A stretch of DNA of 64,000 bases from positions 186,001 through 250,000 of the forward strand of contig JAHDFP010000001.1 of NCBI GenBank assembly GCA_020628095.1. Reading direction: 5' to 3'. The notes under the pieces are model-generated. The model was not told the origin of the DNA. It saw nothing but the letters and a program-made list of their open reading frames with translations, and did not search any database. Origin of the DNA: Saprospiraceae bacterium (GTDB taxonomy: Bacteria; Bacteroidota; Bacteroidia; Chitinophagales; Saprospiraceae). Shown in pieces: positions 2,988 through 48,200 of this stretch; position 1 is the stretch's first letter, and every line of letters begins with the position of its first letter. Made by a program: the position numbers and the translations under genes.

Positions 2988-3286
2988 TAAATCGGGTTTT
3001 TGAGAGAATGACACTAGTAGAGAAAGCAATCCCCTATGTATTAGTGCTATTCCATAGTATAACTAAACAAAAAATTAATCTTGTTTACTGTAATCGGGAG
3101 GGAAAACTTCACAAACATATTAAATATTTTTATAATGTATAAGTAATTGATAAATAAAATTTTCCGATCTTATTTGACCTATATGATTTATGAATTAGAC
3201 TAAGTGCAGATATTTTTAGAAATAATTCTTGTGGCTTCATATTAATATGTGTTATTTGTTCATATATTGAATTAACTTTAAAATAG
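2988..3286. other. Divergent intergenic region
   Basis: This 299-base AT-rich stretch separates the divergent surface protein and coiled-coil genes and should hold both promoters. The sequence TAACTTTA just before the ATG at 3287 is one base off the Bacteroidota -7 box TAnnTTTG. I see no RNA gene, hairpin or repeat in it. Confidence 0.4.
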
Positions 3287-3841: not shown

Positions 3842-3849
3842 AACATTAT

Positions 3850-5992: not shown

Positions 5993-6003
5993 ATTTCTCC
6001 TAA

Positions 6004-6025
6004 AATCCACATGCCCTCGTGGATT
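6004..6025 (+). terminator. Short hairpin after apbE, possible weak terminator
   Basis: AATCCAC at 6004-6010 and GTGGATT at 6019-6025 form a perfect 7-bp stem with an 8-base loop, starting 12 bases past the apbE stop. No T-run follows, so intrinsic termination is doubtful. Confidence 0.3.
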
Positions 6026-6153
6026 ACGGATTAATTATTTGACTTTTGCAGCATTATAAAAACCATGTATAATTAATGGCAATCGAATAGAACAAATCAG
6101 TGCCCTTATACATTTTCATAACACGATATTTTTTCTCAATAGAAATTTAAGAC

Positions 6154-23270: not shown

Positions 23271-24251
23271 ATGCGAAGAATTATACCAACTTTCATATTA
23301 TGCTTTTTAGCCATATCTATACAATCACAAGATCTTCATTTCACTAACTACCAATTTTCACCACTTTACTTATCCCCTGCCAAGACGGGGTCCTATTTAG
23401 GGTCCTATCGCGTCGGTGGATCAGCAAGACAACAGTTTAATAGCTTCATACAAAACCCCTATCAGACCCTTACCCTGTATGCAGATAGTCCCGTTACAAA
23501 TGGCTTCTCAAAAAATCACTGGATTGGAGTTGGTATTTCCCTATACAACGATCGCGCTGGAGATACAGAAAGAGTAATTAACGGATTACTTTCTAGTATA
23601 TCGTACCATATTGGTCTTGACAAAAACTACAACAATGTTGTATCAGTTGGTCTACAATATGGAAGAAGTGCTATGACTTTTGGAACTGGTATTTGGCCTG
23701 AAGAGGATGAAAACGAAAAGTTTCAAAATTTGGATATCAATTTAAGCGATATCAATGTAGGAGTCAGCTTTAAATCTAAAACTTCTAAAACTGCTTTCTT
23801 CGAAATTGGTATGGCCGTTTATCATTTGAATAAACCCAAATATAGATTTTCAAAAGGCAACACAGACAACACCATCGATAGAAGGTATAATTTCTATGGA
23901 GAATATCATATACAATCTAGTGACAGACTCTATATCAGACCATCTATTATTTATTCCAGAACATATAATTTCAGAGAGTTTTTAGGGCAATTCAACCTAG
24001 AATATGCCCCTAACAAAAAATCTTCTACCAAGATTACTGGAGGACTTGGCTACAGGTTTGGCGATGCATTACAGTTTATGGCTGGAGTAGTATATAAGGA
24101 TTGGCAGGTCGGTTTGTCTTATGACTTGACCGTTTCTTCGGCGGCGTCTTACAATAATAATTTTGGAGGTATAGAGCTCGGCGTGTTCAGAATATTTACA
24201 GTCAATAAAAAACCAAAATTAAATCCAAAGGCTCTATGTCCTAGACTTTAA
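23271..24251 (+). CDS. PorP/SprF-family type IX secretion membrane protein
   Basis: The 326-residue outer-membrane barrel has a signal peptide (IIPTFILCFLAISIQSQ) and the family's N-terminal signature HFTNYQFSPLYLSPAKTG, then the SYRVGGSARQQF region. SprF of Flavobacterium johnsoniae is needed to secrete the giant adhesin SprB, and PorP/SprF genes usually lie beside adhesins carrying type B C-terminal domains. Here it is the first gene of an operon with a metzincin-like protein (19 bases downstream) and a PKD-repeat adhesin, so it is probably the dedicated outer-membrane partner of that adhesin. A second adhesin module at 32010 lacks its own copy and may share it. Confidence 0.93.
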   Translation: MRRIIPTFILCFLAISIQSQDLHFTNYQFSPLYLSPAKTGSYLGSYRVGGSARQQFNSFIQNPYQTLTLYADSPVTNGFSKNHWIGVGISLYNDRAGDTERVINGLLSSISYHIGLDKNYNNVVSVGLQYGRSAMTFGTGIWPEEDENEKFQNLDINLSDINVGVSFKSKTSKTAFFEIGMAVYHLNKPKYRFSKGNTDNTIDRRYNFYGEYHIQSSDRLYIRPSIIYSRTYNFREFLGQFNLEYAPNKKSSTKITGGLGYRFGDALQFMAGVVYKDWQVGLSYDLTVSSAASYNNNFGGIELGVFRIFTVNKKPKLNPKALCPRL

Positions 24252-24270: not shown

Positions 24271-25128
24271 ATGAATCATTCGTACAAAAGAGTTTCCACA
24301 TTAATAATATTGTTTGCTGTTCTGTCATGCTTTTATGCCAATAGCCAAACACTACATCTGAAAAATGTCAGCTTGCCATGCCTTAATAAAAACTATAATA
24401 TTATTGCGCATGTAGCGGTTGATTCTTTGAACAGACCACTTTTCACGAGGAGGCAAGTAGAAAATGCTTTGCAAAAAGTGTCAGAGTTCTTTGAGCCAAT
24501 ATGTATATCATTTGAAAACTGTGAGTACCAGGTTATGCAAGAAGACTGGTCTCTGGGCATACTTAAAAACAAACCCCTATTAAAAGACCAGCGGATACTG
24601 GAGTTACGTAATCGTTACTCCAAGCGTCGAAGAATCAATATTTTCTTTCTTGATGAAATAGATTTGGAATATTGCGGTCAGAGTACCTTTGACGGACTAC
24701 AAACTCTGAAGGATGCTAACATTTTCGTCGAGAGGCAATGTGACTGGTCTATATCTGGCCAGATTGCTCATCATCTTGGGCATATTTTTGGCCTAAGAAA
24801 TACGTATGACCTTTTCTCTATAGAATTAGTGGACGGCAGCAATTGTCTAACGACTGGTGATCTCTTATGTGACACTCCCGCAGATCCTTATGGTCAAAAC
24901 TATATATACCCTGCCGACCAAGAGGCTTATGACAATAACGAATTATACACCGGCTATGTAGACGAAAAATGTGAATTTGTATACGAGCTAAAAGATCCTA
25001 ATGGCGAATACTACCAACCCGATGTAGGTAACGCTATGTCTGCTTACCCCTGCAAATGTGGGTTCACCGTGGAACAGTACCTACTCATGGCGGAGAATTA
25101 TAGAAAATCAATTATTAAACACTTCTAA
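24271..25128 (+). CDS. M43-like metzincin homologue with degenerate active site (copy 1)
   Basis: This 285-residue secreted protein (signal ending FYANSQ) matches the pappalysin-like M43 family: FFEPICISFENC, INIFFLDEID, the zinc region, ELVDGSNC, TGDLLCDTPADP and the Met-turn segment NAMSAYPCKC. The expected HExxHxxGxxH reads HHLGHIFGLRN (residues 167-177). The catalytic Glu is replaced by His and the third ligand His by Asn, so ordinary zinc proteolysis should be lost. At least ten Cys match the paralogue at 32010. It sits 12 bases before the PKD adhesin gene and was probably co-transcribed. It may be a non-catalytic binding or chaperone-like partner. Confidence 0.85.
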   Translation: MNHSYKRVSTLIILFAVLSCFYANSQTLHLKNVSLPCLNKNYNIIAHVAVDSLNRPLFTRRQVENALQKVSEFFEPICISFENCEYQVMQEDWSLGILKNKPLLKDQRILELRNRYSKRRRINIFFLDEIDLEYCGQSTFDGLQTLKDANIFVERQCDWSISGQIAHHLGHIFGLRNTYDLFSIELVDGSNCLTTGDLLCDTPADPYGQNYIYPADQEAYDNNELYTGYVDEKCEFVYELKDPNGEYYQPDVGNAMSAYPCKCGFTVEQYLLMAENYRKSIIKHF

Positions 25129-25140
25129 AAGTCGCCAGTC

Positions 25141-28100
25141 ATGAGAATAATATCACTTATAACAATACTTTTTCTTTATTCTTCTATCTCTGAGGTTACT
25201 GCACAATCTGCTGACGTGACATCAGGATGTGCAGAACTTAATGTACAATTTTCCGCACCTCAGTCCGCGAGTTACTTTTGGGACTTTGGTAATGGTGCAA
25301 CATCAGAACTACAAAATCCTGAATATAGCTATGTGCAACCAGGAGATTATACTGTGCGTCTATATGACCGTCAGGGTGGTCTGAAAGTAGGCAATGATCT
25401 GGTCATTACAGTTTATCCAGAAATTGATTTTGTAATCGAGGCGGATGTCAGATCAGGTTGCGCACCCTTGACCGTTAATTTCACCAGTCAGATTAATGTA
25501 CATCCCGATATCATTGTCAAAGATATCGTTTGGACCTTTGGTGATGGGGCCAGTGCATCTGGACAAAATGTCTCCTATACCTATAATAGAGCTAATCTCT
25601 ATGATGTCTCACTTAAGGTTATCACAGAAAATAATATAAAATGTGAAGACCCTATTTTGTTTGAAGAATACATCAGTGTGGAAGGAGCAAGAACAGCTTT
25701 TAGCCTAGACAAAAAATCATCGTGTGATGTTCCAGCAGAATTTATTCTGACCAATCGGACGACTGGGGATACTAATGCCAGTTATCGTTGGGACTTTGGC
25801 AATGGAAATAGTTCCACAGAAAGAGGTCCCTTAAGAGTCAACTATGAAGAAGCGGGATTATACGAAATAACCTTGACCACAACTACGCCTTCTGGATGTG
25901 TCACATCATTTGCCAGGTCTGTTAATGTCGGCGCACCAGTCATCAATATGACTATACCCGATACAGTTTGTTTCGCATCAGAAACCATTTTAGGTAACGA
26001 AACGATTGCTGACTCTTTTGTATGGAATTTTGACGGGGCAAATGTATCGCTGGAAGACGAAAATGACACAATACTCGCAGCGCCTGTAGTCTTGTTTAAT
26101 CAGGTAGGAAATCAGACGATAGAGCTGACCGCATTATCAGAAAATGGTTGTCAGACAACAGAGTCCATTTCTGTTTTCGTCTATAGACCCAATGCAGATT
26201 TCAGTGTCGGACCAGAAGTCAATTGCGCGCCAGAATTCGATATGCAACTGGAGGCCGCAGATGGCAATATGGCAACCTATATATGGGAACCTGTCATAAT
26301 CAATGGCACACCAGCAAGTAGGATACAATCAGATAATTCTAAATTAGATTTCACCTATACACAACCAGCTAGAGATCAATGGTATGTAAATATAGAGGAC
26401 ACCATTATCTCTCGTCTAACAGTTATAAGCGCTAATGGATGTAGCAATATATCACAGACTCCACTCTTTGTGCAAAGACCAGAAGCCTTTTTCGTTCCTG
26501 ATTTTGTGGCGGGCTGTGTTCCATTCGAAGTGAATTTTTCTGATTTCAGTACCTCGGACGAGCCCATCGTAGAAAGAGCATGGAACTTTGGTGATGGTAA
26601 TGGCATGCAAGTAGGTGAAAAAGATACTGTTGTAACCCATACCTATAATACACCAGGCATTCATACGGCTCAATTAATAATCAAGAATGATGCAGATTGT
26701 ATCGATTATTCGCGAGAAGTAGAAATACTAGTCATCACTAAAGACACCATTCCCGCAGAAGGTGGCGGCATGTGCAACCCGAGTACTACAGGTCCGATCT
26801 GTGTCGGTGATTCTATCTTCTTTGAGATAACAACCAATGCCCGAAATATAGACACCCATATAGAAAACGACGAAGGAAGGCTAAGCCATTGCTGGAAAGA
26901 CCAAAGCGTCTACCACCCGTATTACTATCCAGGTAATTATCCTCTTGCCCTGATTATAGAATATTATGGCATTATGATCGATTCTATTCCAATTGCAGAC
27001 ATAGAAGTTGTTGGATCTAAACCAAATATATCTTATGAATTTGCAGATTGTCGTAGCGATGGTGGCTCCAATAATATTGTAGAATTCGATGCAGGAAGTA
27101 GCATCAATGCAGATCGCTATAGATGGACTATAGACAATGGGTACTCATCAGAAGAAAAATCATTTTCTTATACATTCTCAGAGGTCGGTGATTATATGGT
27201 ATATCTAGAGACTGAAGATTCTTCCACACCGCAATGTATTCCTATCAAGGATAGTGTTATGATACATATTAGAGACGTACAAGCCGATTTCGCCATACCT
27301 GACAAAGTCTGTGCTAATCAGATGATTCCTTTGGATGCTTCGCCATCAGTGGATGTAGACAAAAAATGTTACTCTGGTTTCTTATGGAATTTTGACACCC
27401 ATCGTCCAAGAGAAGTGGGTACTGATACTTTATTCCATAGTTTCCCTCCTGGACCGCAGACAGTAACACTGACGGTAGAAGACATTAACGGATGCACAAG
27501 CTCTATTACTAAGTCTATAACCGCCTACGGAATGGCATCAGATTTTGACTTGGTCGAGAGAACCTGTCTACCTTCAGAACAAAATTTGACCGATCTGTCT
27601 ATAGCTGATACCACATTAGTAAGTTGGATGTGGGATTTTGGAAGTGAAGAATCTGTAGAACGAAATCCTTTGCACACATTTACTGAGGCAGACTTGGATA
27701 CTCTTTATATGGATGACACCATCACAGTAAAACTTATTGTAGAAGATGCCTTAGGTTGCCAAGATTCGTTGAGTAAACTTGTTACTCTATACGATATAGA
27801 ATCAGAAATATTTATGGATCAAGGGGCTATAATATGTCAGGATGAGATTATCACATTCGACGCACAGGACTTTACTCAGGAGGGTTCTTACTTAGATTAT
27901 TTTTGGGAATTCGAAGGAATCGGAACAAGCACTGATAAAATGCCCGCCATACAATTTCCTAATCCTGATTCAGTAGCAGTTACACTGACATTTACAGAAG
28001 TGGCTACGGGATGTATAGGTCAGTTAGATACACTAATAGATGTCGTCGCTACACCCATAGCAAATTTCGAAACCCCTTATGACAATGAGCCTTATATATG

Positions 28101-29085
28101 TTTTCCAGAACAAATTCCATTTACTAACACCACTGTAGAAGATAGACGTGTAATATACAGCTGGGACTTTGGTAATGGTTCTACCTCTACCCTACGCGAT
28201 CCAGTAATCCCATTTGACAAGGGCACTTACGAAGTGCAGCTTGTTGCCACATCCATCTATGGGTGCAGGGATACAATAAATCAATCTTTCACGCTATTAG
28301 GGCCAGAAGGAAGCCTAGAGGTGGATAAGACCGATGTCTGTCCTGGCGAAGAGATTCAGTTTACCATGATAGACCCAATCGATGTATCGAGTTGGACTTG
28401 GGATTTTGGTGATGGTAATCAGGTGGATAATCAGAACCCAGTCAACCATAGCTATTCGCCATCCTCAAGCGTTACCGTATTTACACCGACATTGATTATC
28501 AGATCAGACGAGACTGGTTGTGAGTCAGTGGTTAATATTCCAATCAACCTATCATCTATTACTGCCGACTTTATAGACTCCACTGGAGTCTGTCCAGGAG
28601 AGATATCATTTTTCTCAGGATTCGAAAATCCGCAATCACTCCGATGGATAATAGATGGACAAGAAATAGATGACACACCTAATCCATCTGTTAGTGTGGA
28701 TAAGGAAACCATCGAAGTTTCGCTAGTCGTGACGGACAGTCGTGGGTGCGAGGTGGAAAGAAAAAGAACAATAGATATTCCTGATTTGGATAAAGGGAAT
28801 ATTATATATCCTAACGTCTTTTCTCCTAATGGTGATCAGAAAAATGATTTCTTCAATGTAAAGTTTGACGATACAGCATTTCCCTCGGCTCCAATTATAT
28901 CAGTGTTCCGAGTGTACAACAGATGGGGACAACTTATCTATGACAACGAGGACCCCGACAATGGCTGGAATGGCCAATACAATGGCGAAGAAGCTCCGTC
29001 AGATGTCTATGCTTATTACATAGAATTGGATATAGAAGGATGTGCTTCTAAGTCTAAAAAAGGTAATGTAACAATAGTCAGATAA
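25141..29085 (+). CDS. PKD-repeat surface adhesin with T9SS type B sorting domain (copy 1)
   Basis: The 1314-residue protein has a signal peptide (ISLITILFLYSSISEVTAQ) and about thirteen PKD-like beta-sandwich repeats of roughly 85-95 residues. The repeats are marked by WDFGNG or WDFGDG at the strand turn, the F.Y/H..Y..PG.Y.V.L run, and regular Cys near each repeat boundary. The last 95 residues form the gliding-motility-associated C-terminal (type B) domain: NVFSPNGDQKNDFF, VYNRWGQLIYDN, GWNGQYNGEEAPSDVYAYYI, ending KKGNVTIVR. It is presumably exported by T9SS with help of the PorP/SprF protein two genes upstream and displayed or released at the cell surface. Its ligand is unknown. A close paralogue of equal length is at 32858. 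Confidence 0.93.
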   Translation: MRIISLITILFLYSSISEVTAQSADVTSGCAELNVQFSAPQSASYFWDFGNGATSELQNPEYSYVQPGDYTVRLYDRQGGLKVGNDLVITVYPEIDFVIEADVRSGCAPLTVNFTSQINVHPDIIVKDIVWTFGDGASASGQNVSYTYNRANLYDVSLKVITENNIKCEDPILFEEYISVEGARTAFSLDKKSSCDVPAEFILTNRTTGDTNASYRWDFGNGNSSTERGPLRVNYEEAGLYEITLTTTTPSGCVTSFARSVNVGAPVINMTIPDTVCFASETILGNETIADSFVWNFDGANVSLEDENDTILAAPVVLFNQVGNQTIELTALSENGCQTTESISVFVYRPNADFSVGPEVNCAPEFDMQLEAADGNMATYIWEPVIINGTPASRIQSDNSKLDFTYTQPARDQWYVNIEDTIISRLTVISANGCSNISQTPLFVQRPEAFFVPDFVAGCVPFEVNFSDFSTSDEPIVERAWNFGDGNGMQVGEKDTVVTHTYNTPGIHTAQLIIKNDADCIDYSREVEILVITKDTIPAEGGGMCNPSTTGPICVGDSIFFEITTNARNIDTHIENDEGRLSHCWKDQSVYHPYYYPGNYPLALIIEYYGIMIDSIPIADIEVVGSKPNISYEFADCRSDGGSNNIVEFDAGSSINADRYRWTIDNGYSSEEKSFSYTFSEVGDYMVYLETEDSSTPQCIPIKDSVMIHIRDVQADFAIPDKVCANQMIPLDASPSVDVDKKCYSGFLWNFDTHRPREVGTDTLFHSFPPGPQTVTLTVEDINGCTSSITKSITAYGMASDFDLVERTCLPSEQNLTDLSIADTTLVSWMWDFGSEESVERNPLHTFTEADLDTLYMDDTITVKLIVEDALGCQDSLSKLVTLYDIESEIFMDQGAIICQDEIITFDAQDFTQEGSYLDYFWEFEGIGTSTDKMPAIQFPNPDSVAVTLTFTEVATGCIGQLDTLIDVVATPIANFETPYDNEPYICFPEQIPFTNTTVEDRRVIYSWDFGNGSTSTLRDPVIPFDKGTYEVQLVATSIYGCRDTINQSFTLLGPEGSLEVDKTDVCPGEEIQFTMIDPIDVSSWTWDFGDGNQVDNQNPVNHSYSPSSSVTVFTPTLIIRSDETGCESVVNIPINLSSITADFIDSTGVCPGEISFFSGFENPQSLRWIIDGQEIDDTPNPSVSVDKETIEVSLVVTDSRGCEVERKRTIDIPDLDKGNIIYPNVFSPNGDQKNDFFNVKFDDTAFPSAPIISVFRVYNRWGQLIYDNEDPDNGWNGQYNGEEAPSDVYAYYIELDIEGCASKSKKGNVTIVR

Positions 29086-29156
29086 TAGATTTAGTATATT
29101 GCGAGGCATTCCATTTTATTAATGCCCTTGAGACTAAATACTAAAGAAAGGCTATT

Positions 29157-29612
29157 ATGCAAAACAAGGAAATCATAGAAGCATTCTATTCTGCATTCTC
29201 CAGAGGTGACTGGCAAGAAATGGGTTCTTACTATCATAACGAGGTTACTTTTAGTGATCCTGTATTTGGAGAATTAAGAAGCACGGAAGCATCTAAAATG
29301 TGGAAGATGTTACTATCCAGAAAAGACGCCTCTCCAAAAATCACTTTTGCTAATGTCAAGGCTAACGACCAGGAAGGTTCTGCGGATTGGCAGGCAGAGT
29401 ATTTTTATGGTCCCAAAAAGAGAAAAGTCATAAATAAGATAAATGCAGAGTTTACCTTCGAAGGCGGAAAAATCATCAAGCATAAGGACAGCTTCGACCT
29501 TTGGACATGGTCTAAACAAGCACTCGGGCCTATGGGGTATTTGCTTGGTTGGTCTCCTTTCATGAAGGGTAAAATAAGAAAGATGGCACGGGGCAGACTA
29601 GATAATTTTTAA
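29157..29612 (+). CDS. NTF2-like/SnoaL-type protein
   Basis: This 151-residue protein has no signal peptide. The N-terminal segment EIIEAFYSAFSRGDWQEMGSYYH and the following FSDPVFGELRS, then KMWKMLL, fit the cone-shaped NTF2-like fold seen in SnoaL and DUF4440-type proteins (helix, then curved sheet). Such proteins are polyketide-cyclase-like or merely ligand-binding; no function can be named. A basic C-terminus (KGKIRKMARGRLDNF) ends the protein. It is flanked by two unrelated surface-protein genes and is probably its own unit. Confidence 0.8.
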   Translation: MQNKEIIEAFYSAFSRGDWQEMGSYYHNEVTFSDPVFGELRSTEASKMWKMLLSRKDASPKITFANVKANDQEGSADWQAEYFYGPKKRKVINKINAEFTFEGGKIIKHKDSFDLWTWSKQALGPMGYLLGWSPFMKGKIRKMARGRLDNF

Positions 29613-29791
29613 GTTGTTCTATACTAGCACATTATAATATAAAGAGTTACAAATCAATTTGTCCTTCAACCAAGAATCATCTTACACGCTCATACTCAAG
29701 ACCGAGTTTACCTTTTTATTCATAACGCGACAATTAGAAAGCAAGAAGTAGTACTTAAGAATCTATAATAAGACTATCATTGCTCAAACTT

Positions 29792-30616
29792 ATGATGCGT
29801 ATAAACTTTAAGATTTGCCTGATTCTCTTCTTGGGAATATTCATGGCTTGCCATAATCAAAATAAAACACCCGACTCCAAGAAAATAACAACAGAATCCT
29901 TCCAAAATAAAGGTCACGAACTTTTATATAATATGGTGCAGAAAGTAGGAAACCATAGTATACTCTCTCAGAAAAAGGATGTCGTCTATACTTACACCTA
30001 TCTGACCTCAGATGGCAAAAAAGATGTTTCTACCGAGAAATACATATTCGACGGAGAGCTATCTTATGGCCTATATAATCCGCACGAAAGAACCTTACCC
30101 AATCTTACAGGCCCAATAGAGCAAGGATATGACGGAGAAGAATATTGGTTTAAGCACAATGGCACTATAATCAATGATTCGACCATACTAAAAAGAGTCG
30201 CATTCAATAGACCCACTAATTATTATTGGTTTGCCATGTTCCAAAAACTATTAGATCCAGGGTTGATCTATGAGTACAAGGGAGAGAAAGAAATAGAAGG
30301 AAACTTATACGATATAGTCAGCGTGTCATTTACACCAGTGGATAACAAACCCACTGACATTTACCAAGTCTACATCAATAGGCAAACCTCATTAGTAGAT
30401 CAGTTTTTATTTACTGTGGCGGATTTTGGCGTGATGGACGAGCCACTACTAATGAAGGTAGAATACGAAGAAGTCGAAAATATATTAGTTCCAAGTCAGC
30501 GCAAATACCAAAAATCGACTTGGAATGCCGATATAAGTGAAGGCCCCTGGACAGAGGTGATCTGGTCTGATATAAAATTTGACAACGGTCTTACTATAGC
30601 AGATTTCAAAAAGTAG
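29792..30616 (+). CDS. DUF6503-like secreted lipoprotein
   Basis: This protein of about 274 residues has a signal peptide with a lipobox (LFLGIFMACHNQ, Cys at about 20), so it is probably a lipoprotein. The mature part is mostly beta strand: DVVYTYTYLTSDGKKDVSTEKYIFDGE, GYDGEEYWFKHNG, YEYKGEKEIEGNLYD, and a closing half rich in paired strands. The layout resembles the DUF6503/LolA-like clan of Bacteroidota proteins, which suggests lipid or lipoprotein binding, but I am not certain of the family. I start at the ATG at 29792; a TTG at 29780 is in frame. Confidence 0.75.
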   Translation: MMRINFKICLILFLGIFMACHNQNKTPDSKKITTESFQNKGHELLYNMVQKVGNHSILSQKKDVVYTYTYLTSDGKKDVSTEKYIFDGELSYGLYNPHERTLPNLTGPIEQGYDGEEYWFKHNGTIINDSTILKRVAFNRPTNYYWFAMFQKLLDPGLIYEYKGEKEIEGNLYDIVSVSFTPVDNKPTDIYQVYINRQTSLVDQFLFTVADFGVMDEPLLMKVEYEEVENILVPSQRKYQKSTWNADISEGPWTEVIWSDIKFDNGLTIADFKK

Positions 30617-30749
30617 TCGGCCCATAAAAACATGTTAACATAAACTTAGTCCCCAAATTTTATGGCAAATCAAAATGGTTAATGTCAGTACTAATCGTCC
30701 CAATAAATGATGATTATTACATATATTTAAGAAAAACTTATACAATAAG

Positions 30750-31964
30750 ATGAGATTTACAATTAGCGCAATTTGTCTTTTATTTTCTATCACTGTTTTT
30801 GGGCAACATCCGACATGTGATGGAGATAGATTTAAGAATGATATATTCGATGACGTGACGCATACGGCAGCTATTAAGTATGGCGAGAACGAAACCTTCT
30901 CTGGCGTTAACCAAGAATTATTTTTTGATCTATACGAACCGACTGATGATACGGCCGAGAAAAGACCGACAATCGTATTAGCTTTCGGAGGTAGCTTTAT
31001 ACAAGGACAAAGAGAAGACCTCGCAGACTTGTGCATGTCTTTTGCAAGGAAAGGATTTGTGGCGGTAACGATAGATTATAGACTATATGATGGCGCACTT
31101 TTCCCAGTACCGGAAGCAGACAAGATGAGAGATGTGGTAGTCAGAACGATCGGTGACATGAAAGCCGTCATAAGGCACCTCAAGCAAGATGCAGCAACGG
31201 ATAATTTATATAGAATAGATCCAGATTTCATCATATCAGGTGGTGTATCAGCGGGAGCGATTACAGCAGCTCATACCGCCGTGCTTGATGAAAGTGATGA
31301 CATACCAGAAGAATTATTAGAGCTTATAGAAAAGCATGGTGGTCTGGAAGGAAATACAACGGATAACTACGAATATGATTCATCTGTCATCGCATACGTC
31401 AATTACTCTGGTGCACTAAACAATGCATCACTTATGACAGCTGATGATCCGCCATTTATAAGTTATCATGATGATGGCGACGGAGTTGTACCATATAGTG
31501 ATGGATGGGCTACTATTGCTAATTTTCCTATAGCCCCATTACAAGGTAGTGCGGTCATGCACTATTATGCAGATAGTCTTAATATCAAAAACGAACTTAA
31601 CACAATAGAAAATAGCAGTGGACATGTAAGTTACTTTGGAGAAATTAGCTCTACTGTAGACGTCATTAATAACACCTCTGCATTTCTAGAAGGTATCGTC
31701 TGCGAAGCCGGTGTGTCAAGCGTACAAGATCAAATAATATCTCAATGGAAGGCATTCCCTAATCCAAGCAGTAGCCTAGTACAATTTGAGAATGATAATG
31801 CGAGTGTAGAAAAATTAGTAGTCTATGATATGCTTGGAAATCTAAGAGACATCATAAATTATCAGAATCGTCTGGACATCGGGAACTACGAAAATGGTAT
31901 ATACCTTGTAGAAATCCATGATGGAGCAGAAAGACCTGTTACAATCAAAATAATCAAGAACTAA
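30750..31964 (+). CDS. Secreted alpha/beta-hydrolase (carboxylesterase-like) with T9SS type A domain
   Basis: This 404-residue protein has a signal peptide (ISAICLLFSITVFGQ). An alpha/beta-hydrolase fold follows: IVLAFGGSF (oxyanion region, in place of the usual HGG), the nucleophile elbow GGVSAGAITAAH (Ser at about 167), an Asp-containing HDDGDGVVPYSDG and the catalytic-His candidate GHVSYFG. The last 75 residues match the T9SS type A C-terminal domain: FPNPSSSLVQF, VYDMLGNL, DIGNYENGIYLVEI, ending VTIKIIKN. It should therefore be exported and anchored or released at the surface. The substrate is unknown. A strong terminator follows at 31975-31998. Confidence 0.9.
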   Translation: MRFTISAICLLFSITVFGQHPTCDGDRFKNDIFDDVTHTAAIKYGENETFSGVNQELFFDLYEPTDDTAEKRPTIVLAFGGSFIQGQREDLADLCMSFARKGFVAVTIDYRLYDGALFPVPEADKMRDVVVRTIGDMKAVIRHLKQDAATDNLYRIDPDFIISGGVSAGAITAAHTAVLDESDDIPEELLELIEKHGGLEGNTTDNYEYDSSVIAYVNYSGALNNASLMTADDPPFISYHDDGDGVVPYSDGWATIANFPIAPLQGSAVMHYYADSLNIKNELNTIENSSGHVSYFGEISSTVDVINNTSAFLEGIVCEAGVSSVQDQIISQWKAFPNPSSSLVQFENDNASVEKLVVYDMLGNLRDIINYQNRLDIGNYENGIYLVEIHDGAERPVTIKIIKN

Positions 31965-31974
31965 AATAAAAACT

Positions 31975-31998
31975 AGGAAGCCCTCATAAGGGCTTCCT
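31975..31998 (+). terminator. Perfect 10-bp hairpin terminator
   Basis: AGGAAGCCCT (31975-31984) and AGGGCTTCCT (31989-31998) form a perfect 10-bp stem with a 4-base loop, just after the esterase gene. Only a short T stretch follows, so it may act with a factor; the A-run before it also permits use on the other strand. It separates the esterase from the second pseudo-protease/adhesin module. Confidence 0.65.
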
Positions 31999-32009
31999 CT
32001 AAACAATCA

Positions 32010-32858
32010 ATGCTCAGGCCAACAATCATTTCAGTCACTTCTTTATTCATTATTCTCTTTAGTGGAATCCAATCTGCCGTTGGACAATTCACGGAAAGTT
32101 TACCTTGTCTTTATAAAAATTATAATATCTCAGCGATCATCGCTGTAGATTCTATGAGTAGAGATTCTATCATCTCTTATGACCAGATAGATTCTATATT
32201 ATTTCAGACCTCGGCATTTTTCGAGCCTATCTGTATGTCCTTTTCCCTGTGCGAAACAACCATCATGGAAAAAGACTACACGCTTGGTATTCTCCTAGAC
32301 AAACCCATCCCTATGGAAAAGAGAATGGAGGAACTTACTAATAGATTTGCGAAGCGTAAGCGCATCAATATTTTCTTTCTTAAATCAATAGATACAGAAA
32401 CCTGTGGCAACAGCATATTTAATGGTATCGAAACGCTACATAATGCTAACGTATATGTAGACCTCAGTTGCGAAGAAGGTCCTGCAGAGCAAATTGCACA
32501 TCACCTTGGACACTTATTTGGATTGCGAGACACCTATGACGAAGACACCATAGAGCTAGTCGATGGATCTAATTGCGCAACAACAGGAGACAGAATATGC
32601 GATACGCCCGCCGACCCTTTTGGACAAACCTACATTAATCCGCAAGATATTATCAGATTGCAAGAAGAAGAACTTATAGATGATTTCATCAGTGATGATT
32701 GCATATTTATATATGAATATCGAGACCCTAATGACGAGTTCTATTCCCCATTAGTCAATAATGTCATGTCGGCCTACCCCTGCAAATGCACCTTTACCAG
32801 AGAGCAATTACTTTTCATTGTAGACAAGTACAACCAATCACCAATAAAGCAATTCTGA
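32010..32858 (+). CDS. M43-like metzincin homologue with degenerate active site (copy 2)
   Basis: This 282-residue protein is a paralogue of the gene at 24271, with a signal peptide (ISVTSLFIILFSGIQSAVGQ) and the same order of motifs: FFEPICMSFSLC, INIFFLKSID, ELVDGSNC, TGDRICDTPADPFGQ and the Met-turn NVMSAYPCKC. The zinc region reads HHLGHLFGLRD (residues 164-174), again lacking the catalytic Glu and with Asp in place of the third His. That both copies keep the same Glu-to-His change suggests an inherited, selected, non-proteolytic role. Its TGA overlaps the ATG of the following adhesin by one base, which couples their translation. Confidence 0.85.
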   Translation: MLRPTIISVTSLFIILFSGIQSAVGQFTESLPCLYKNYNISAIIAVDSMSRDSIISYDQIDSILFQTSAFFEPICMSFSLCETTIMEKDYTLGILLDKPIPMEKRMEELTNRFAKRKRINIFFLKSIDTETCGNSIFNGIETLHNANVYVDLSCEEGPAEQIAHHLGHLFGLRDTYDEDTIELVDGSNCATTGDRICDTPADPFGQTYINPQDIIRLQEEELIDDFISDDCIFIYEYRDPNDEFYSPLVNNVMSAYPCKCTFTREQLLFIVDKYNQSPIKQF

Positions 32859-35800
32859 TGAGTCGTTTGTTGTACATATACATAATAGTTCTCTCCTCTA
32901 TAGGAGTCTTTGCACAGACTGCCGATATTACTTCAGGTTGCGCTGAGCTGACTGTACAATTTTCTGCTCCAGAGGCTGAATCGTATTTCTGGTCATTTGG
33001 AGATAACACTTTTTCTGATCTCCAAAATCCAGAACATAGTTACATACAACCAGGAGATTATATCGTCCAATTATTCGATAATAACGGCGGCAATCAGATA
33101 GGTGCAGATATACGTATCACAGTATATCCCGAAGTCGAATTTTCTATAACCGCTGACACTATTAACGGTTGCTCACCGCTCACAGTAAATTTTTCTGCCA
33201 GCGTCAATGCGCATCCCGATATTGACATTGAGGAAATTGTATGGACCTTTGGTGATGGTGGGTCAGCAATGGGATCAGACGTAACATATACCTATATGCG
33301 ACCAAATATATACGACGTCTCGCTCAAGGTAATTACAAGAAATGATATAAAATGCGATGAGCCCAAAATCTTCGCAGACTTTATAGAAGCGCAAGGGGCC
33401 AATACTGGATTCTCTACTGATGAAGATGTTATCTGCGATGTGCCGGCAGAATTTAGAATCACGAATACGACTTTCAACGATGAAGGCGCGACATACCTCT
33501 GGGAATTTGGAGATGGAGAAACATCCACAGAAAAGTTTGTAGGTAGACATAGTTATAACCAAGCGGGTTCTTATCAACTCAGACTGACTACCACCACCCC
33601 ACTAGGCTGTGTAACTAGTTGGGGAAAAGAACTTATAGTAGGCTCGCCGATTATTAGTATAGAAAATGATACCATCTGTCCTTTGATCGAAAACCAACTT
33701 GTCAATCTTACTGTGGCAGACGAATTTGATTGGAATTTTAGACTTAGCGATTTAGTTCTGTCACCCGACTCTGAGAGGGACGATCGATCACCCATTGTAA
33801 TACCTCAGAGCACAGGAAACAAACTTATTATTCTGACGGCCACCTCGGACGCAGGATGTGAGACCACAGATACTATCAATATCCACGTAGAAAAACCCAA
33901 CTCTGACTTTCAATATGATCAGCCTATCAATAGTTGTCTCCCATCTTTTGATTTTTCTATGACCGCCGAAGACAAAAATCTGGCTCAATACAAATGGATC
34001 AATAGCATCACAGGTACTAACGGTACTATTACGGATGCTTCTACTATTCAGCTTAGTTACGAAGCCATTGTAAGAGATCCATACTATTTTAATGGACCTG
34101 ATTCTTTGAGTACATTATTGGCCGTTACTTCTAGATACGGATGCGTGGATACGACAGAAGTTCTTTTGCCTATAGATAAACCTGAGGCATTTTTTATACC
34201 TGATGTCGTCAAAGGATGCGAACCAATGGTTGTAGAATTTGAAGACTTAAGTTTTTCTCCTAGAAATATAATTAATCGGTCATGGGATTTTGGTGACGGT
34301 AACTCTCGATCTCTCGGAAGAAATGATACCATAACTAATCATACATATCACGAAGCAGGAATATACATAGCTACTCTTGTTATTACTAACGAAGTCGGTT
34401 GCATAGACACTTCCAGACAAGTCGAAATAGAAGTCATATCAAAGGAACAAACAGATACACTACTTATAGGAATACCCACAGATGGTAGTCCTGAAAGTGG
34501 AGAAGGCCCAATGGAATCTCCAGTGCTATGCGTGGGAGATATTGTAAGATTTCCTACGGCACAGGACCCCTATTCCGTCAAGATCGAAACTAACGAAGGC
34601 CGATTCGGTCATTGTATTATCGACACGTTTATAGCTGATAGGTCTTATTTTCCCGGCAAATTTCCAGTGGATTATCTGATAGAAGCAGATGGTATATTCA
34701 TTGACTCCATTAGAGGTTTAGATTCTATTGAGATTTTAGGCTCACATTCCATTTTAGATTACAATATAGACTGCCAGAATCCCTTTACGATTAACTTAGA
34801 TGCCTCCGAAAGTATCAATGCCGATATATATCGGTGGTATATAGATGGCAATTTAGTAAGTGAGGAAACAGAATACAGTCACACCTTCAACGATCGGGGC
34901 GACTATGTTGTAAGTTTAGAAACAGAAAATTCTATAGATCCATGTCGTGCTCATTTAGTGGAAAAGAGAATAGCGATAAGAGACGTGAAAGCCAATTTTG
35001 AAATAGCCGATGTCCTATGCGATAACATATCTTATACTTTGGATGCTAGTCCTTCTGTGGATGTGTTAGATGGATGTCGAGCTGGCATTAAGTGGATTTT
35101 TGAGTATCAAGCACCTAAATCGGTAGGTTCGTTTGAGTACCAACATCAATTCGTAAGTGGTGCGCAAAACCTTACTTTAGTTGCATCGGATATAAATGGT
35201 TGTAGCGACACTCTGACAAAACCAATTAACGTATACGGCATAGACGAAGATATTAATATTGATTCTACAATCTGTATAAATTCTGAGATCCAGTTAATCG
35301 ATCTAAGCCAGGCAGATACCGACTTAGTCAACTGGGAATGGCAAATAGGTGAGACAACACTCAACGAACAAAATCCTACGTACAAATTCTCCATGTCAGA
35401 TATAGACAGAAATTATCAACCTGATACAATATCCGTCAAATTGATATTAACGGACGCAGTAGGCTGTCAAGACACAGTGACAAGACTCTTGGAACCATAT
35501 ATCATAGATACAGAAATGCTCATAGATAACGGTCCACGTATATGTGTAGGTGATATTATTAACTTTGAGGTAACAGATTATAACGATCAAGGTAGCTACT
35601 TAAACTTCGAATGGGATTTTCAACAATATGGCACATCAGATGACAACATGGAAACCATCGTATTCACTGATTCTGGTGATTACAATATTTCTGTACGATA
35701 TACCGAAAATGCAACGGGTTGTACGTCTACATTAGATACGCTAATCGAAGTTTTCGAAGCACCTATCGCGGACTTCTCTTCACCTTTTGATGATGAAGAC

Positions 35801-36799
35801 TTCATCTGCTTTCCTGAGCAAATACCTTTTACTAATAACTCCATAGAAGACGGCCCCGTCATATACCAATGGTCCTTCTCTAATGGGGAAAGATCGACCT
35901 TAGAAAATCCAACCGTACCTTTTGACAAAGGTGAATGGTTTGCCACTCTGGTAGTCAGTTCCTTTTACGGTTGCAGTGACACTTTGACTAAGTCTTACGA
36001 ATTAGTCGGACCAGAAGGAAGTTTCGAAATAGACAAAGCAGTAATATGCCCTGGTGAGCCTGTGACATTTAGGCTCGTTGATCCACAAGATGTGGTGTCT
36101 TACACTTGGGATATGGGTAACGGTACGCAAATAGATGACACTAATCCATTGACTTATACTTACGAGCCCTTAGTCGGTGTTACCACCTTTCTTCCACGTC
36201 TGATTATAAGATCAGATAACGAAGGTTGCGAAAAAACATTCGAATTACCTCTCGATCTCTCTTTTGTCAATGCCGATTTTAAAGATTCGCTTTCTTTTTG
36301 TCAGACAGAATTATATCTGGACAAAACCTTTGACGGTGCTTCTTCGCAGTCCTGGATAATAAATGGTGAATCTGTTTCTACTGCCGATAATCTTGTGTAC
36401 GATATCCCAAATGGTACAACCGATATAGTAGTTAATCTCTCGGTGATAGATGATCGTAATTGTCAGGTCAATCAAGAATTACTCATCGAATTAGAAGAAC
36501 TCGAAGAGACTAAATCTTTTATGCCGAATGTCTTCTCTCCTAATAACGATAACAAAAATGATTTCTTCAACTATGTCATAGAAGACAAACCCGATAATGT
36601 GGATATAACCATCGATGTATTTAGAATTTATAATCGCTGGGGTCAATTACTCTATGACAATTATAATCCTAAAGCAGGTTGGGATGGCAACTATCTGGGT
36701 CAGCCTGTACCTTCTGACGTATATGCCTATTATATAGAGTACCGAATCAACGACTGCGACATCACAGCACAAAAAGGTAATATTACTGTCATAAGATAA
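32858..36799 (+). CDS. PKD-repeat surface adhesin with T9SS type B sorting domain (copy 2)
   Basis: The protein has 1313 residues when started at the ATG at 32858, which overlaps the upstream stop (TGATG) and begins a good signal peptide (YIYIIVLSSIGVFAQ); a longer version from 32786 lies inside the upstream gene and is rejected. It aligns along its full length with the adhesin at 25141, with the same N-terminus (TADITSGCAELTVQFSAP), the same number and spacing of PKD-like repeats, and the same C-terminal type B domain (NVFSPNNDNKNDFF, IYNRWGQLLYDN, PSDVYAYYI, ending KGNITVIR). The two are ancient tandem paralogues that have diverged throughout. There is no PorP/SprF gene of its own next to it. 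Confidence 0.93.
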   Translation: MSRLLYIYIIVLSSIGVFAQTADITSGCAELTVQFSAPEAESYFWSFGDNTFSDLQNPEHSYIQPGDYIVQLFDNNGGNQIGADIRITVYPEVEFSITADTINGCSPLTVNFSASVNAHPDIDIEEIVWTFGDGGSAMGSDVTYTYMRPNIYDVSLKVITRNDIKCDEPKIFADFIEAQGANTGFSTDEDVICDVPAEFRITNTTFNDEGATYLWEFGDGETSTEKFVGRHSYNQAGSYQLRLTTTTPLGCVTSWGKELIVGSPIISIENDTICPLIENQLVNLTVADEFDWNFRLSDLVLSPDSERDDRSPIVIPQSTGNKLIILTATSDAGCETTDTINIHVEKPNSDFQYDQPINSCLPSFDFSMTAEDKNLAQYKWINSITGTNGTITDASTIQLSYEAIVRDPYYFNGPDSLSTLLAVTSRYGCVDTTEVLLPIDKPEAFFIPDVVKGCEPMVVEFEDLSFSPRNIINRSWDFGDGNSRSLGRNDTITNHTYHEAGIYIATLVITNEVGCIDTSRQVEIEVISKEQTDTLLIGIPTDGSPESGEGPMESPVLCVGDIVRFPTAQDPYSVKIETNEGRFGHCIIDTFIADRSYFPGKFPVDYLIEADGIFIDSIRGLDSIEILGSHSILDYNIDCQNPFTINLDASESINADIYRWYIDGNLVSEETEYSHTFNDRGDYVVSLETENSIDPCRAHLVEKRIAIRDVKANFEIADVLCDNISYTLDASPSVDVLDGCRAGIKWIFEYQAPKSVGSFEYQHQFVSGAQNLTLVASDINGCSDTLTKPINVYGIDEDINIDSTICINSEIQLIDLSQADTDLVNWEWQIGETTLNEQNPTYKFSMSDIDRNYQPDTISVKLILTDAVGCQDTVTRLLEPYIIDTEMLIDNGPRICVGDIINFEVTDYNDQGSYLNFEWDFQQYGTSDDNMETIVFTDSGDYNISVRYTENATGCTSTLDTLIEVFEAPIADFSSPFDDEDFICFPEQIPFTNNSIEDGPVIYQWSFSNGERSTLENPTVPFDKGEWFATLVVSSFYGCSDTLTKSYELVGPEGSFEIDKAVICPGEPVTFRLVDPQDVVSYTWDMGNGTQIDDTNPLTYTYEPLVGVTTFLPRLIIRSDNEGCEKTFELPLDLSFVNADFKDSLSFCQTELYLDKTFDGASSQSWIINGESVSTADNLVYDIPNGTTDIVVNLSVIDDRNCQVNQELLIELEELEETKSFMPNVFSPNNDNKNDFFNYVIEDKPDNVDITIDVFRIYNRWGQLLYDNYNPKAGWDGNYLGQPVPSDVYAYYIEYRINDCDITAQKGNITVIR

Positions 36800-36835: not shown

Positions 36836-39127
36836 ATGAAGTATATTCTGTCTTTCTTCTTTATAATGCTTTCTATAGTACTTTCTGCCCAAAGCAATGA
36901 AGGCACTGAATTTTGGTTTGCCTTTATGGAACACATAGATGGAAGAGACGCAGATCACGTCATCATGATAACATCCAGGACTAATACGACAGGCACTATT
37001 AACATAGAGGGTCTGGAATATTCGCGGAGCTTTACTGTTACCGCTAATCAGGTAGAGATCATTAATATACCGAGTTCCGCACAGTTTATTGGATCAGAAG
37101 ATATTAGAAATTTAGGGATTCAAATTACAACCGCGCTACCTGTTTCTGTCTATATACACCAGTATCATAATTTCAGATCAGAAGCGGCACTTGTGCTTCC
37201 CATATCATCCTTATCTGACCAATATTATGTCATGTCTAATTTTGGAATAAGCGGAGATTTTGGAGAAGGGTTATCACAATTTTGTATAGTGGCCTATGAG
37301 GATGAAACTGAGGTCGATATACTCTTATCCGCGACGACTAAGAAAGGTGTACCTCGGAATACCACCATATCCCAATCACTCAATAAAGGAGAGGTCTATC
37401 AAGTGCAAGCCACGAACTCATTAGCAGATATTACGGGTACATTTGTCTCGGGTAATAAAAACTTTGCAATACTGGCAGGTTGCTCATGGAGCCAGGTTCC
37501 TCTAGGATGTCGTTACTACGATAACCTTCTGGAAATGATGACACCGATGGACACTTGGGGAAAGGAGTTTGTTGCTGTGCCTACACTCGAAGGTAGAGAA
37601 AGTGATATATTCAGAATTCTATCCAGTCAGGATAATAATCAGGTAGAAATAATAAATTCTCAAGGCAACTTAATATCATCATTCGCACTACATAGAGGAG
37701 AGTATCAGGAACTAGAAAGTACTAATGCCTTGTATATCAAAGGCAGCCACCCTGTGATTATCGCACAGTATATGAAAGGATCTCAATGTCAAAGTCATAT
37801 CAATGGAGACCCATCTATGCTCATATTAAATTCGCTAGAGCAGATTAGAGACACCGTTATTATATTCAATTCCAATCTTCAAAATATAACAGAAAACTAC
37901 ATCTCCATAATATCCAAGAATTCTGATAAGGAAAGCGTACAACTCGATGGCAACATTATCACTAATTGGAAAACGATAGGCGAATTCTCTTATAGTATCT
38001 CCGAGGTGCGTAGTGGGACGCATACCATCACCAATGCAGGTTGTGGTGTAATTGCCAGCGCCTATGGTATGGGTGACAAAGAAAGCTACGCCTATGGAGG
38101 AGGTGCCAGTTTCTCTAAGATCAATGCCTCTCCACTACCAGAAGGTCAATGCGTCAATATTCCAGTTACATTTGACTCTGAACTTCCAGAAACTCGATAT
38201 GATATCACATGGGATTTAGGACCAGACATAGGAGTATTCCAAGATCATACTTTCGAATATACCTATGACGAAATTGGCATCTATCCAGCAGTAGCCACCA
38301 TCTATGACAAATGTTTTGATCAGACAGAGATTATAGAAAGTGATATAATAATAAGTCTCAGGCAAAATGTAGATGTATCCGATAACAGCGCTTATTGCCT
38401 TGGGGATAGTATCTATTTGCAAGCTATTGATTCAGGAATAGACATACCTGCAGGCGGAGCATTGACTTATCATTGGACAGGACCTGATAATTTTTCTATA
38501 TCTCAAGTAGATCCAGATGTAGAGATTGCCAATTCTACAATAAGTATGTCCGGTCAATATAAAGTCATTGCAGAAGTATCGGGATGCGAAACCGAGCCTG
38601 CTTATACGGATGTAGACATAAGAGATTTTCCTAAACCCAACCTCGGAGCAGATACGATCTTATGTTCCAAAATAGAAGAGATCAATATACAAATAGATCC
38701 AGGAGAATATGACACCTATCTTTGGCAAGACAATAGCTCTAGCAGGATCTTGACGATTACAGAAGAGGGAGAGTATAATGTCGTTGTGACGGACGATATA
38801 GGTTGCGAGGGTGGAGATGCGATAGTGGTCAATGACAGATGTCCTACGAGATTTTACCTACCCAATATTTTTACACCGAATTCCTATAATAATAACTCCT
38901 TTGGCATATATGCAGATGATATTATAGATGCAACGATGAGCATCTATGATAAATGGGGTAACCTAGTTTTTGTCACATCAGACAGCTCTAATGCTTGGCA
39001 GGGTAATTACAATAATCAGGATGCCATACAAGGAATTTATACCTATCTAATAGACTTCCAAGGATACGACGACGAAGGAAATATTATAATAGGTCGGCAT
39101 CATGGTACTGTGTTGTTAGTCCGGTAA
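36836..39127 (+). CDS. IgGFc-binding-like surface protein with T9SS type B domain
   Basis: This 763-residue protein has a signal peptide (LSFFFIMLSIVLSAQ). The N-terminal 400 residues fit the IgGFc-binding domain found in many Bacteroidota surface proteins: GTEFWFAFMEH, ITSRTNTTGTI, VSVYIHQYHNFRSEAALVLP, YYVMSNFGISGDFG, FAILAGCSWSQVP. A PKD-like segment (about 455-520, with YTYDEIGIYPAVATIYD) and an Ig-like segment (about 530-600) follow. The last 95 residues are a type B sorting domain (NIFTPNSYNNNSFG, IYDKWGNLVFV, AWQGNYNNQDAIQGIYTYLI). It may bind host or environmental glycoproteins. It lies close behind the second adhesin and may share its transcript. Confidence 0.9.
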   Translation: MKYILSFFFIMLSIVLSAQSNEGTEFWFAFMEHIDGRDADHVIMITSRTNTTGTINIEGLEYSRSFTVTANQVEIINIPSSAQFIGSEDIRNLGIQITTALPVSVYIHQYHNFRSEAALVLPISSLSDQYYVMSNFGISGDFGEGLSQFCIVAYEDETEVDILLSATTKKGVPRNTTISQSLNKGEVYQVQATNSLADITGTFVSGNKNFAILAGCSWSQVPLGCRYYDNLLEMMTPMDTWGKEFVAVPTLEGRESDIFRILSSQDNNQVEIINSQGNLISSFALHRGEYQELESTNALYIKGSHPVIIAQYMKGSQCQSHINGDPSMLILNSLEQIRDTVIIFNSNLQNITENYISIISKNSDKESVQLDGNIITNWKTIGEFSYSISEVRSGTHTITNAGCGVIASAYGMGDKESYAYGGGASFSKINASPLPEGQCVNIPVTFDSELPETRYDITWDLGPDIGVFQDHTFEYTYDEIGIYPAVATIYDKCFDQTEIIESDIIISLRQNVDVSDNSAYCLGDSIYLQAIDSGIDIPAGGALTYHWTGPDNFSISQVDPDVEIANSTISMSGQYKVIAEVSGCETEPAYTDVDIRDFPKPNLGADTILCSKIEEINIQIDPGEYDTYLWQDNSSSRILTITEEGEYNVVVTDDIGCEGGDAIVVNDRCPTRFYLPNIFTPNSYNNNSFGIYADDIIDATMSIYDKWGNLVFVTSDSSNAWQGNYNNQDAIQGIYTYLIDFQGYDDEGNIIIGRHHGTVLLVR

Positions 39128-45253: not shown

Positions 45254-48200
45254 TTGTGCATCTGCTCTATCATAAGCTGTGAGCCCGATTCCAATAACCA
45301 CGATTCGGCTTCGCATCTATTCTCAGAAAGCATAGAATTAGACTTTGAAAATGTCATAGATGATTCAGAGCTGAGTGTATTCGACTATCACTATCTATAT
45401 AATGGAGGTGGTGTAGGTGTCGCAGATTTTGATAACGATGGTTATCTAGATATTTTTCTTTCTGGCAACATGGTTTCTTGCGCTTTATTAAAAGGATCTA
45501 ACAATTTAGCATATAACAACGTGACAGAAAGCGCAGGCATCAAGACCAGTCAATGGGTCAATGGCGTCTCAATAGTGGATATCAACCATGATGGCAAATC
45601 GGATATATATCTATCCGTAGGTGGTCCTAACTGCGACAATGGGCTTTGCAGAAATTTGCTTTTTATAAATAGATCAGAAAACGGTCAAATTTTGTTCGAA
45701 GAAAAGTCAGAAACATATAATCTTAATATAGACTTATATAGTCAACAAGGAATCTTCTTTGATGCCGATCTGGATGGAGATTTGGATTTGTATCAATTAC
45801 AAAATTATGTAGACCCGACAACTAAGAATTATCCCAAACCAAAGCAGTATTTTTCCAAGAAAAGTTTTGATAAATTCTACATAAACCTAGAAGTAGAAAC
45901 TGGACAAATCAAATATGAAGATGCCTCAGAAAAATGGAATGTCGATCTGCCTGGTTTTGGTCTAGGTGTTATATGCAATGACATCAATAATGACGGCTAC
46001 CCTGACCTCTACGTTGCTAACGACTTCATATCTGATGACATACTTTATATTAATATCGATGGCGAACGGTTTGAGGATAGATCCAAGACTTGGCTTAAGC
46101 ATACAACTTATAATAGTATGGGTGTCGATTTTGGTGATATAAATGAAGACCAGCAAGATGATATACTTGTGGTAGATATGCTTCCTCAAGATAATTATAG
46201 GCAAAAGACCATGCTGGGTTCTATGAACTATGATAAATATTTGCTTTCTCTCATAGAAGGATATAACAAACAATTCATCAGAAATACGTTACAATTACAT
46301 CCTGGTAATAATACAGATAACACTAATCCATTTACGGACATCGCGCCATTCTTAGATATTCACCAGACTGATTGGAGTTGGTCGCCAATAATAACAGACT
46401 TTGATAATGATGGCTATAATGATATCTACATTAGTAATGGTTATGGCAAAAATATAACCGACCTTGATTTCGTCAATTACAATTCCAACTTAGTAGGGTT
46501 CGGTGAAAAAGAGGATATGATCAATAAGATAAAATCCGATGTCAAGAATCTTCCAGATGTTAAGTTACCAAACCAACTCTATATAAATGATAGAACAGGG
46601 AAGTTCTTCAATTTCAGCTTCAGCAAGAAATCAATCACTAACGGTGTCGCGTATGCAGACATAGACAATGACGGAGATCTGGACCTTATCGAAAATAATC
46701 TCAACGAAAAATCACGAATATTAATCAACAACAGTCAAGGAAATAATTATATAAAAATAAAACTAAGAGGATTTGAAAAAAACATAAATGCCATAGGAAC
46801 GAAAGTCACTTGCACGCTGACCAACGGTAAAAAAATAACAAGAACCATGTCACCGACACGGTCTTATCTCTCGACTATGGACTTTGTGCTGACTTTCGGA
46901 TTAGGAAAAGAAAGTGTAGAACACTTAGACATAAAGTGGATGGACAATAAGAGGTCCATCATCAAAAATCCAGCAAATAATCAAACTCTTCTTATCGAAT
47001 ACAGCAATTCTAAGTTTGTCGATAAAATTGACACCACCACATCAACACTATTAAATCGCACAAGTACTCTGATTACTAAAGACAAGAAAATTGGCAACAA
47101 GCATGACTTTAGTCTACAGCGGCTCTTGTTTAAATCGTGCTTGAATGAGAATATCAGAATGTGCAAGTCTAAAATAGACAACAGCCTAATCATCGCAAAT
47201 CAAAGCGAAGCATTAAGAGAATTAGATTTATCTACATCGGTAGCAACGATTATCCATGATTTCAATAATGAGATTGTAACCGATCTGATAATAACTGACA
47301 ATGACAGATCAGAGAATCTTTATGTCACCACCAATTCCAACGAAAAAGGTAATAAGGCTAAATTATATGTATTCGAAAAAATAAGTAATCGTTGGAAACT
47401 TTTACAGACTAAAAAACTGAATGAGGCCATCTATAATTTTGCATCCTCAGATGATAACGTATTTATATACGCAAGATCTGATGCCAACAACTATCCGCAA
47501 TTATCTAAGAATGAATTAATGAAAATTAGTTTAGCAAATAATAGTATCATACTTAACTCCATTGAATTAGAAAATTACGGTGACATATCTGATCTATCCC
47601 TAGTGGATCTTGACGGTGATGACAAGAATGAGCTTATAGTTGTGGGAGAATGGCAAAGTCCAAAAATTTATAGTTCACAAGAAGGCTATTATAGAGAAAG
47701 AGAATATCCACCATTCGATTCTTTGCTAGGCTACTGGCAATGTTGCAAAGTTGATGATTTAGATAGAGATGGTGACTTAGATATCTTGCTTGGTAATCTG
47801 GGGCATAATACGAGACTCAGAGCGGACATAGATAAGCCCATAAGAATAGTAAAAAATGATCTCAATGGTGATGGTAAAAATGATCCCATTATGTCTCATC
47901 GCAACGGTAAAAATCAAGAACAATATACTTATGCATCCAGAGATGATATTGCCATCAATCTTCCAAAACTTAAAAAATCCTATATAGACTATAATACATT
48001 TGCGAAATCGGAATACGACGAGATTATCAATAACCTTAACTCTGAAGCAGAGTATGCCATTATTAATAACCTAAGCAGTGTAATTTTAGAAAATAAAGGA
48101 GGATTAGAATTTGCAATAAGAACATTGCCACGATCGGCTCAGTTGAGCATTATTAATGATGTTGAAATTGTTGATATTAACAATGATAACCTCAAGGATA

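Follow-up and report, generated by a model that had tools for sequence, protein, structure and literature searches.

Organization of the two modules

The stretch of DNA analyzed here (64,000 nucleotides, hereafter the window) belongs to contig C3 of a 4.2-Mb Saprospiraceae genome and harbors, on its forward strand, two related gene pairs located at 24271-29085 and 32010-36799. In each pair, a gene encoding a secreted M43 (pappalysin)-like protein of 282 to 285 amino acids is followed by a gene encoding an adhesin of 1313 to 1314 amino acids, which carries many PKD domains together with a CHU_C/type IX secretion system (T9SS) type B domain. The positions and lengths originally given for these genes, as well as the spacing within each pair, were all correct when the sequence was read again.

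The first gene of module 1 (23271..24251) encodes an outer-membrane shuttle of the PorP/SprF family (PF11751, E 5e-36; TIGR03519 above cut-off). Since it ends 19 bases upstream of the start of M43-like copy 1, module 1 consists of three genes, whereas the original prediction described a two-gene module and missed the shuttle. M43-like copy 1 (24271..25128; 285 amino acids) has a Sec-type N-terminus, as judged by inspection, and full-length relatives. After a gap of 12 bases it is followed by adhesin 1 (25141..29085; 1314 amino acids; PKD_4, E 2e-84; CHU_C, E 3e-17; TIGR04131 over cut-off), whose type B sorting domain is encoded at 28804-29076. Module 2 has no adjoining PorP/SprF gene. It is composed of M43-like copy 2 (32010..32858; 282 amino acids) and adhesin 2 (32858..36799; 1313 amino acids; PKD_4, E 8e-73; CHU_C, E 3e-13; TIGR04131 over cut-off; type B domain at 36521-36790), the two genes overlapping by one base within the sequence TGATG at 32856-32860. 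The domain profile scan found no T9SS domain in the M43-like proteins of the window.

Both M43-like proteins display HHLGH in place of HELGH and lack the third histidine, while retaining the Met-turn, the cysteine pattern (ten cysteines) and the CDTPADP segment, in agreement with the original reading. In copy 1, the degenerate zinc motif HHLGHIFGLRN (residues 167-177) is encoded at 24769..24801, CDTPADP (residues 200-206) at 24868..24888, and the Met-turn NAMSAY at 25030..25047. The corresponding elements of copy 2 are HHLGHLFGLRD (residues 164-174; 32499..32531), CDTPADP (residues 197-203; 32598..32618) and NVMSAY (32760..32777). By analogy with mirolysin, CDTPADP corresponds to the calcium-loop region of pappalysins (PMC6949598). 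The last sense codons of the two genes, at 25123-25125 and 32853-32855, both specify an aromatic residue.

Other genes lie nearby. Between the modules, positions 30750-31964 encode an esterase of the BD-FAE type, whose sorting tail is T9SS type A, at the place held in module 1 by the PorP/SprF gene. Directly after module 2, positions 36836-39127 encode a protein of 763 residues, in which an IgGFc-binding domain (PF17517, E 4e-64) is combined with a CHU_C type IX sorting domain, and further along, after genes resembling those of outer-membrane receptors, positions 45254-48427 encode a 1057-residue FG-GAP/UnbV_ASPIC repeat protein.

Assignment of the M43-like proteins to family M43

The two M43-like proteins share 53% identity and lie on either side of the Pfam M43 cut-off of 23 bits, copy 2 being just above it (PF05572, 23.5 bits) and copy 1 below it (13.1 bits, E 0.09). 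Their relatives with an intact catalytic site score between 27.9 and 46 bits against the same profile, and profile comparison with known structures matched the M43-like proteins to PAPP-A2 (E 6e-5) and PAPP-A (E 7e-4). The family name is therefore based on copy 2, on the intact relatives and on the match to PAPP-A2 and PAPP-A. Standard annotation barely recognizes these proteins as members of M43. An AlphaFold model, built from three sequences only, reached a pLDDT of 34.

With the pappalysins of peptidase family M43 (mirolysin, ulilysin, PAPP-A, PAPP-A2 and cytophagalysin), the M43-like proteins have in common the metzincin-type motif region, the Met-turn, the calcium-loop residues and the positions of the C-terminal disulfides. 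Residues N254, M256, D197, D201, D205, C234 and C263 (copy 1 numbering) are found in 18/18 members of the clade to which the window copies belong. In contrast to pappalysins, proteins of the window type are short and consist of a single domain, and they are tied to a separate adhesin gene. Moreover, neither window copy holds the signature HExxHxxGxxH/D with its catalytic glutamate, a signature which includes known metzincins with Asp as the third ligand (PMC6949598), and both have alanine at Met+2, the position of the tyrosine-switch residue in mirolysin (PMC6949598). About 16 residues separate the expected signal cleavage site from the first strand, which is too short for a pro-segment like that of mirolysin, of 34 residues (PMC6949598).

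Pairing of the M43-like protein with the adhesin in relatives

We searched 298 Saprospiraceae genomes, mostly fragmented, with M43-like copy 2 and with adhesin 1. With copy 2, matches to the short M43-like gene were obtained at 103 places, of which a few are partial; 86 of the 103 lie within 2.5 kb of an adhesin matched by the adhesin 1 search. As for the remaining 17, three do adjoin an adhesin missing from that search, and most of the others end at contig edges. Counted by genome (uncorrected for relatedness), the short M43-like gene occurs in 95, the adhesin in 96 and both in 93. In two of the three genomes with the adhesin only, the contig ends just upstream of it, and the adhesin match of the third starts at a contig end.

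Among 82 loci ranked by similarity to copy 2 and read in detail, 77 have an adhesin adjacent to the M43-like gene, in two arrangements: directly downstream on the same strand (37 loci) or head to head (40 loci). In the operon-type loci, PorP/SprF is found upstream of the M43-like gene in 31 of the 37. The five loci with no adhesin in reach comprise two contig ends, one short contig (L085) and two loci of genus g40, which has kept both genes although they are unlinked, the adhesin being on another contig. A standalone class of M43-like proteins, suggested by same-strand neighbors, was dropped once the head-to-head adhesins had been found. Two loci vary in other ways: L056 (G205:C113:2000-15000) has one M43-like gene followed by two adhesins in tandem, and the adhesin of G220:C121 is preceded by a gene other than the M43-like one.

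In other families of the order, 13 of 14 short forms abut an adhesin, and the remaining one is placed at a contig start. Several of these short forms are encoded together with PorP and an approximately 700-codon frame (L133, L134, L137, L138, L140, L141 and L142, the last without PorP in the stretch read); the two such frames that were scanned, L133 and L140, are PorE-like, with OmpA plus PD40. Outside the family, matches across the phylum are longer M43 proteins, except for one 312-codon frame, and viral contigs yielded no relatives. The short M43-like proteins thus form a subfamily largely confined to the order and linked to one adhesin family, and the pairing with the adhesin is a property of the whole subfamily, whether its members look active or not. 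Homologues of the HHxGx type, for which co-occurrence with adhesins was originally predicted, abut a type B PKD adhesin in 14 of 15 cases, and the 15th ends at a contig edge.

Intact and degenerate catalytic sites

HExxHxxGxxH is complete in 31 of the 82 loci, a proportion which reflects the ranking by similarity to copy 2 and is not a population estimate. All 31 intact members have tyrosine at Met+2, as opposed to 9 of the 51 degenerate ones. The intact site occurs in 13 of the 37 operon-type loci (24 without) and in 17 of the 40 head-to-head loci (23 without), that is, in 30 of 77 together. The idea that HHLGH is tied to an adhesin position excluding active enzymes is accordingly rejected, since intact members occupy the same gene positions, and the adhesin locus does not require inactivity. 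With regard to orientation and catalytic state, the tree offered two independent contrasts only, and no link was concluded; likewise, the independent pairs supporting a correlated loss of the glutamate with the third histidine or the tyrosine were too few for a decision.

On the tree, the intact site changed state at least eight times and the glutamate at least six times; if loss is irreversible, there are 14 all-lost clades for the intact site and 11 for the glutamate. The window copies fall in a degenerate clade of 18 members, which is spread over several genera and has kept the adhesin alongside. In this clade, the glutamate position is occupied by histidine in 14 members and by glutamine in 4. 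Glutamine is encoded by CAA and histidine by CAT or CAC; these codons fit a possible path from Glu through Gln to His by single steps. Chance or sequencing error as the origin of the histidine is excluded by its presence in 14 clade members from several genera.

The remainder of the protein is well conserved. In all 82 proteins, residues N254, M256, D197, T202, D205 and Q269 (copy 1 numbering) do not vary, and in the degenerate members eight of the ten cysteines are kept in at least 94% and the other two in about 80%. For two HH pairs, dN/dS was 0.03 (L056/L057) and 0.17 (L048/L043), and for close pairs with a full site 0.04 to 0.08; these values are rough, synonymous sites being near saturation in most pairs. 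The original view that the genes are unlikely to be decaying is borne out by these two HH pairs and by the retained cysteines and calcium-loop residues, and decaying pseudogenes are rejected in view of the low dN/dS and the conserved structural residues. The window's group combines catalytic loss with purifying selection, as expected of pseudopeptidases, with dN/dS taken from two inactive pairs and rough. Like the pseudopeptidases among metallopeptidases, in which the fold is kept, catalytic residues are lost and binding roles are likely (PMC11266112), the window's group retains its structural residues; what differs here is that the loss recurs many times in one bacterial subfamily with a constant partner. 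M43 does not appear in the text of that review of metallopeptidase pseudopeptidases (PMC11266112).

Another conserved feature of the short M43-like proteins is their last residue, which is aromatic in 81 of 82 (Trp in 62, Phe in 10, Tyr in 9), the exception being cut by a contig end. All 31 intact members end in Trp, and the window's clade has Phe or Tyr there. This aromatic C-terminus might serve as a docking or recognition end.

Type IX secretion setting

The genome encodes SprA, 12 PorP/SprF proteins and 42 CHU_C matches. Type B substrates are collected and anchored by the cognate PorP/SprF proteins to which they bind (PMC9143113, PMC12618676). In SprB-SprF of Flavobacterium johnsoniae and PG1035-PorP of Porphyromonas gingivalis, too, the surface protein is large, has a type B domain and is linked to a PorP/SprF gene (PMC9143113, PMC12618676). 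In other families of the order, a linked PorE-like OmpA/PD40 protein is present too. Two differences are apparent: the shuttle gene lies upstream of its cargo here, whereas in F. johnsoniae it is usually directly downstream, and, compared with systems of the SprB-SprF type, an M43-like gene is inserted between shuttle gene and cargo.

A related arrangement occurs elsewhere in the same genome. Locus L149 (G000:C10:32800-42500) contains on its minus strand, at 587-8709, a 2399-codon frame which joins a reprolysin-like metzincin domain, with the intact motif HEFGHMFNATH, to Ig domains and CHU_C, and which adjoins a PorP/SprF gene. This frame is a fused counterpart of the protease-adhesin pairing.

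A candidate adhesin-binding subunit

On the basis of the near-perfect co-occurrence of the two genes, the survival of the pair through rearrangements and the repeated catalytic loss with the rest of the protein kept, we propose with middling confidence that the type B PKD adhesin has the neighboring M43-like protein as a dedicated partner subunit, for which proteolysis would be optional and, in the lineage of the window, lost. Somewhat more tentatively, we suggest that type IX adhesin modules across the order have turned a protease fold into a dedicated binding subunit, with the site lost many times (at least eight state changes) and the partnership with one adhesin family kept. The complete site in 31 of 82 relatives counts against a binding-only view, so proteolysis matters in many lineages. 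The selected non-proteolytic role originally put forward is in keeping with the conservation and with the co-occurrence of HHxGx proteins and adhesins, but one of the two observations originally named as refuting it, intact homologues in the same gene position, was made in part, and the adhesin locus does not select for inactivity. We instead regard inactivity as a recurrent state, tolerated or favored, within a general M43-like/adhesin partnership.

As to how such a partnership might work, the contact with the adhesin, its compartment and a holding or subunit role are what we infer from the gene sequences. Sec would take both proteins across the inner membrane. The adhesin would leave through the SprA translocon and be collected and held at the surface by the PorP/SprF shuttle, of which module 1 has its own, while module 2 would have to use a shared one, like known orphan type B proteins. 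Since the M43-like protein has no T9SS domain, it must either meet the adhesin in the periplasm, which is most likely, or travel with it. Its former substrate cleft, assumed to persist in degenerate members, would bind a stretch of the adhesin, and the M43-like protein may thereby keep the adhesin fit for export or cap it, or it may ride out and stay as a surface subunit. In many lineages, where the metzincin active site in the cleft is still complete, it may also trim the adhesin; in the window's lineage, the general base, the third zinc ligand and the tyrosine switch are gone, and binding only would be left.

Four other explanations were weighed against a binding subunit. The M43-like protein could be a maturation protease whose ancestral job was to cut the adhesin and whose activity became dispensable, with degenerate members persisting where the adhesin needs no cutting. 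The 31 proteins which keep HExxHxxGxxH and the tyrosine switch, and whose genes are placed like those of the degenerate members, speak for it, but the degenerate members are not decaying, as their low dN/dS and invariant structural residues indicate, and the 18-member degenerate clade is still found beside the adhesin in several genera; we consider this explanation unlikely. The roles might also be reversed, the adhesin being the carrier on which the M43-like protein is exported and displayed, as an external protease or an external binding protein depending on the lineage. That the type B domain is on the adhesin, the M43-like protein having no T9SS domain of its own, is consistent with this, as is the 2399-codon metzincin-like/Ig/CHU_C fusion with PorP/SprF next door. 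However, the metzincin domain of the fusion resembles reprolysins and not M43, and sequences do not separate a carrier from a holding role; on balance, we find a carrier adhesin quite unlikely.

An altered metal site, in which HHxxH with Asp or Asn in the third position binds a metal for a different chemistry, is an improbable explanation. It would agree with the HH/HQ clade, in which the first motif histidine is kept in 18/18 members and the fifth in 17/18, while the third histidine is replaced by Asp or Asn in 17/18, and with the precedent of an Asp third ligand in metzincins (PMC6949598), but the tyrosine switch is lost too and other degenerate clades have lost the first or the fifth histidine. 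Most improbable of all is a linkage without contact, in which both genes are expressed together to serve one habit (surface growth) and the proteins act independently. The operon or shared divergent promoter region seen in most relatives would suit it, but the presence and absence of the two genes match in 93 genomes, including where they are unlinked, and the pair has outlasted changes in arrangement.

Known partners of type B T9SS adhesins are a PorP/SprF shuttle and, in some cases, a PorE anchor. Should the M43-like protein prove to be another such partner, it would be an additional component of type B T9SS surface machines, and a partner reading gives a testable role to proteins of this subfamily. 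The subfamily would then also offer, for one and the same partner protein, a naturally occurring set of active proteases matched by dead ones, and with it a direct way to ask how and why an enzyme turns into a binding subunit. We found no earlier account of the M43-like/adhesin pair in open-access papers.

Age of the duplication

The modules of the window are paralogous, as the original description of a duplicated module implied, but the duplication is probably old rather than recent. M43-like copy 1 groups with orthologues from other genera (support 97/93), and copy 2 branches outside them; a tree with the window copies held as sisters gave a p-AU of 0.041. Adhesin 1 shares 49-50% identity with its four best relatives from other genera, as compared with 47% with adhesin 2. 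On these grounds, the duplication probably predates these genera, or else copy 2 was acquired. A recent tandem duplication is rejected, moderately, the p-AU of the sister constraint being only 0.041. A third paralogous module is located on contig C33 of the same genome, where an M43-like protein with the motif HHLGHLLGLST is encoded beside a large PKD/CHU_C protein.
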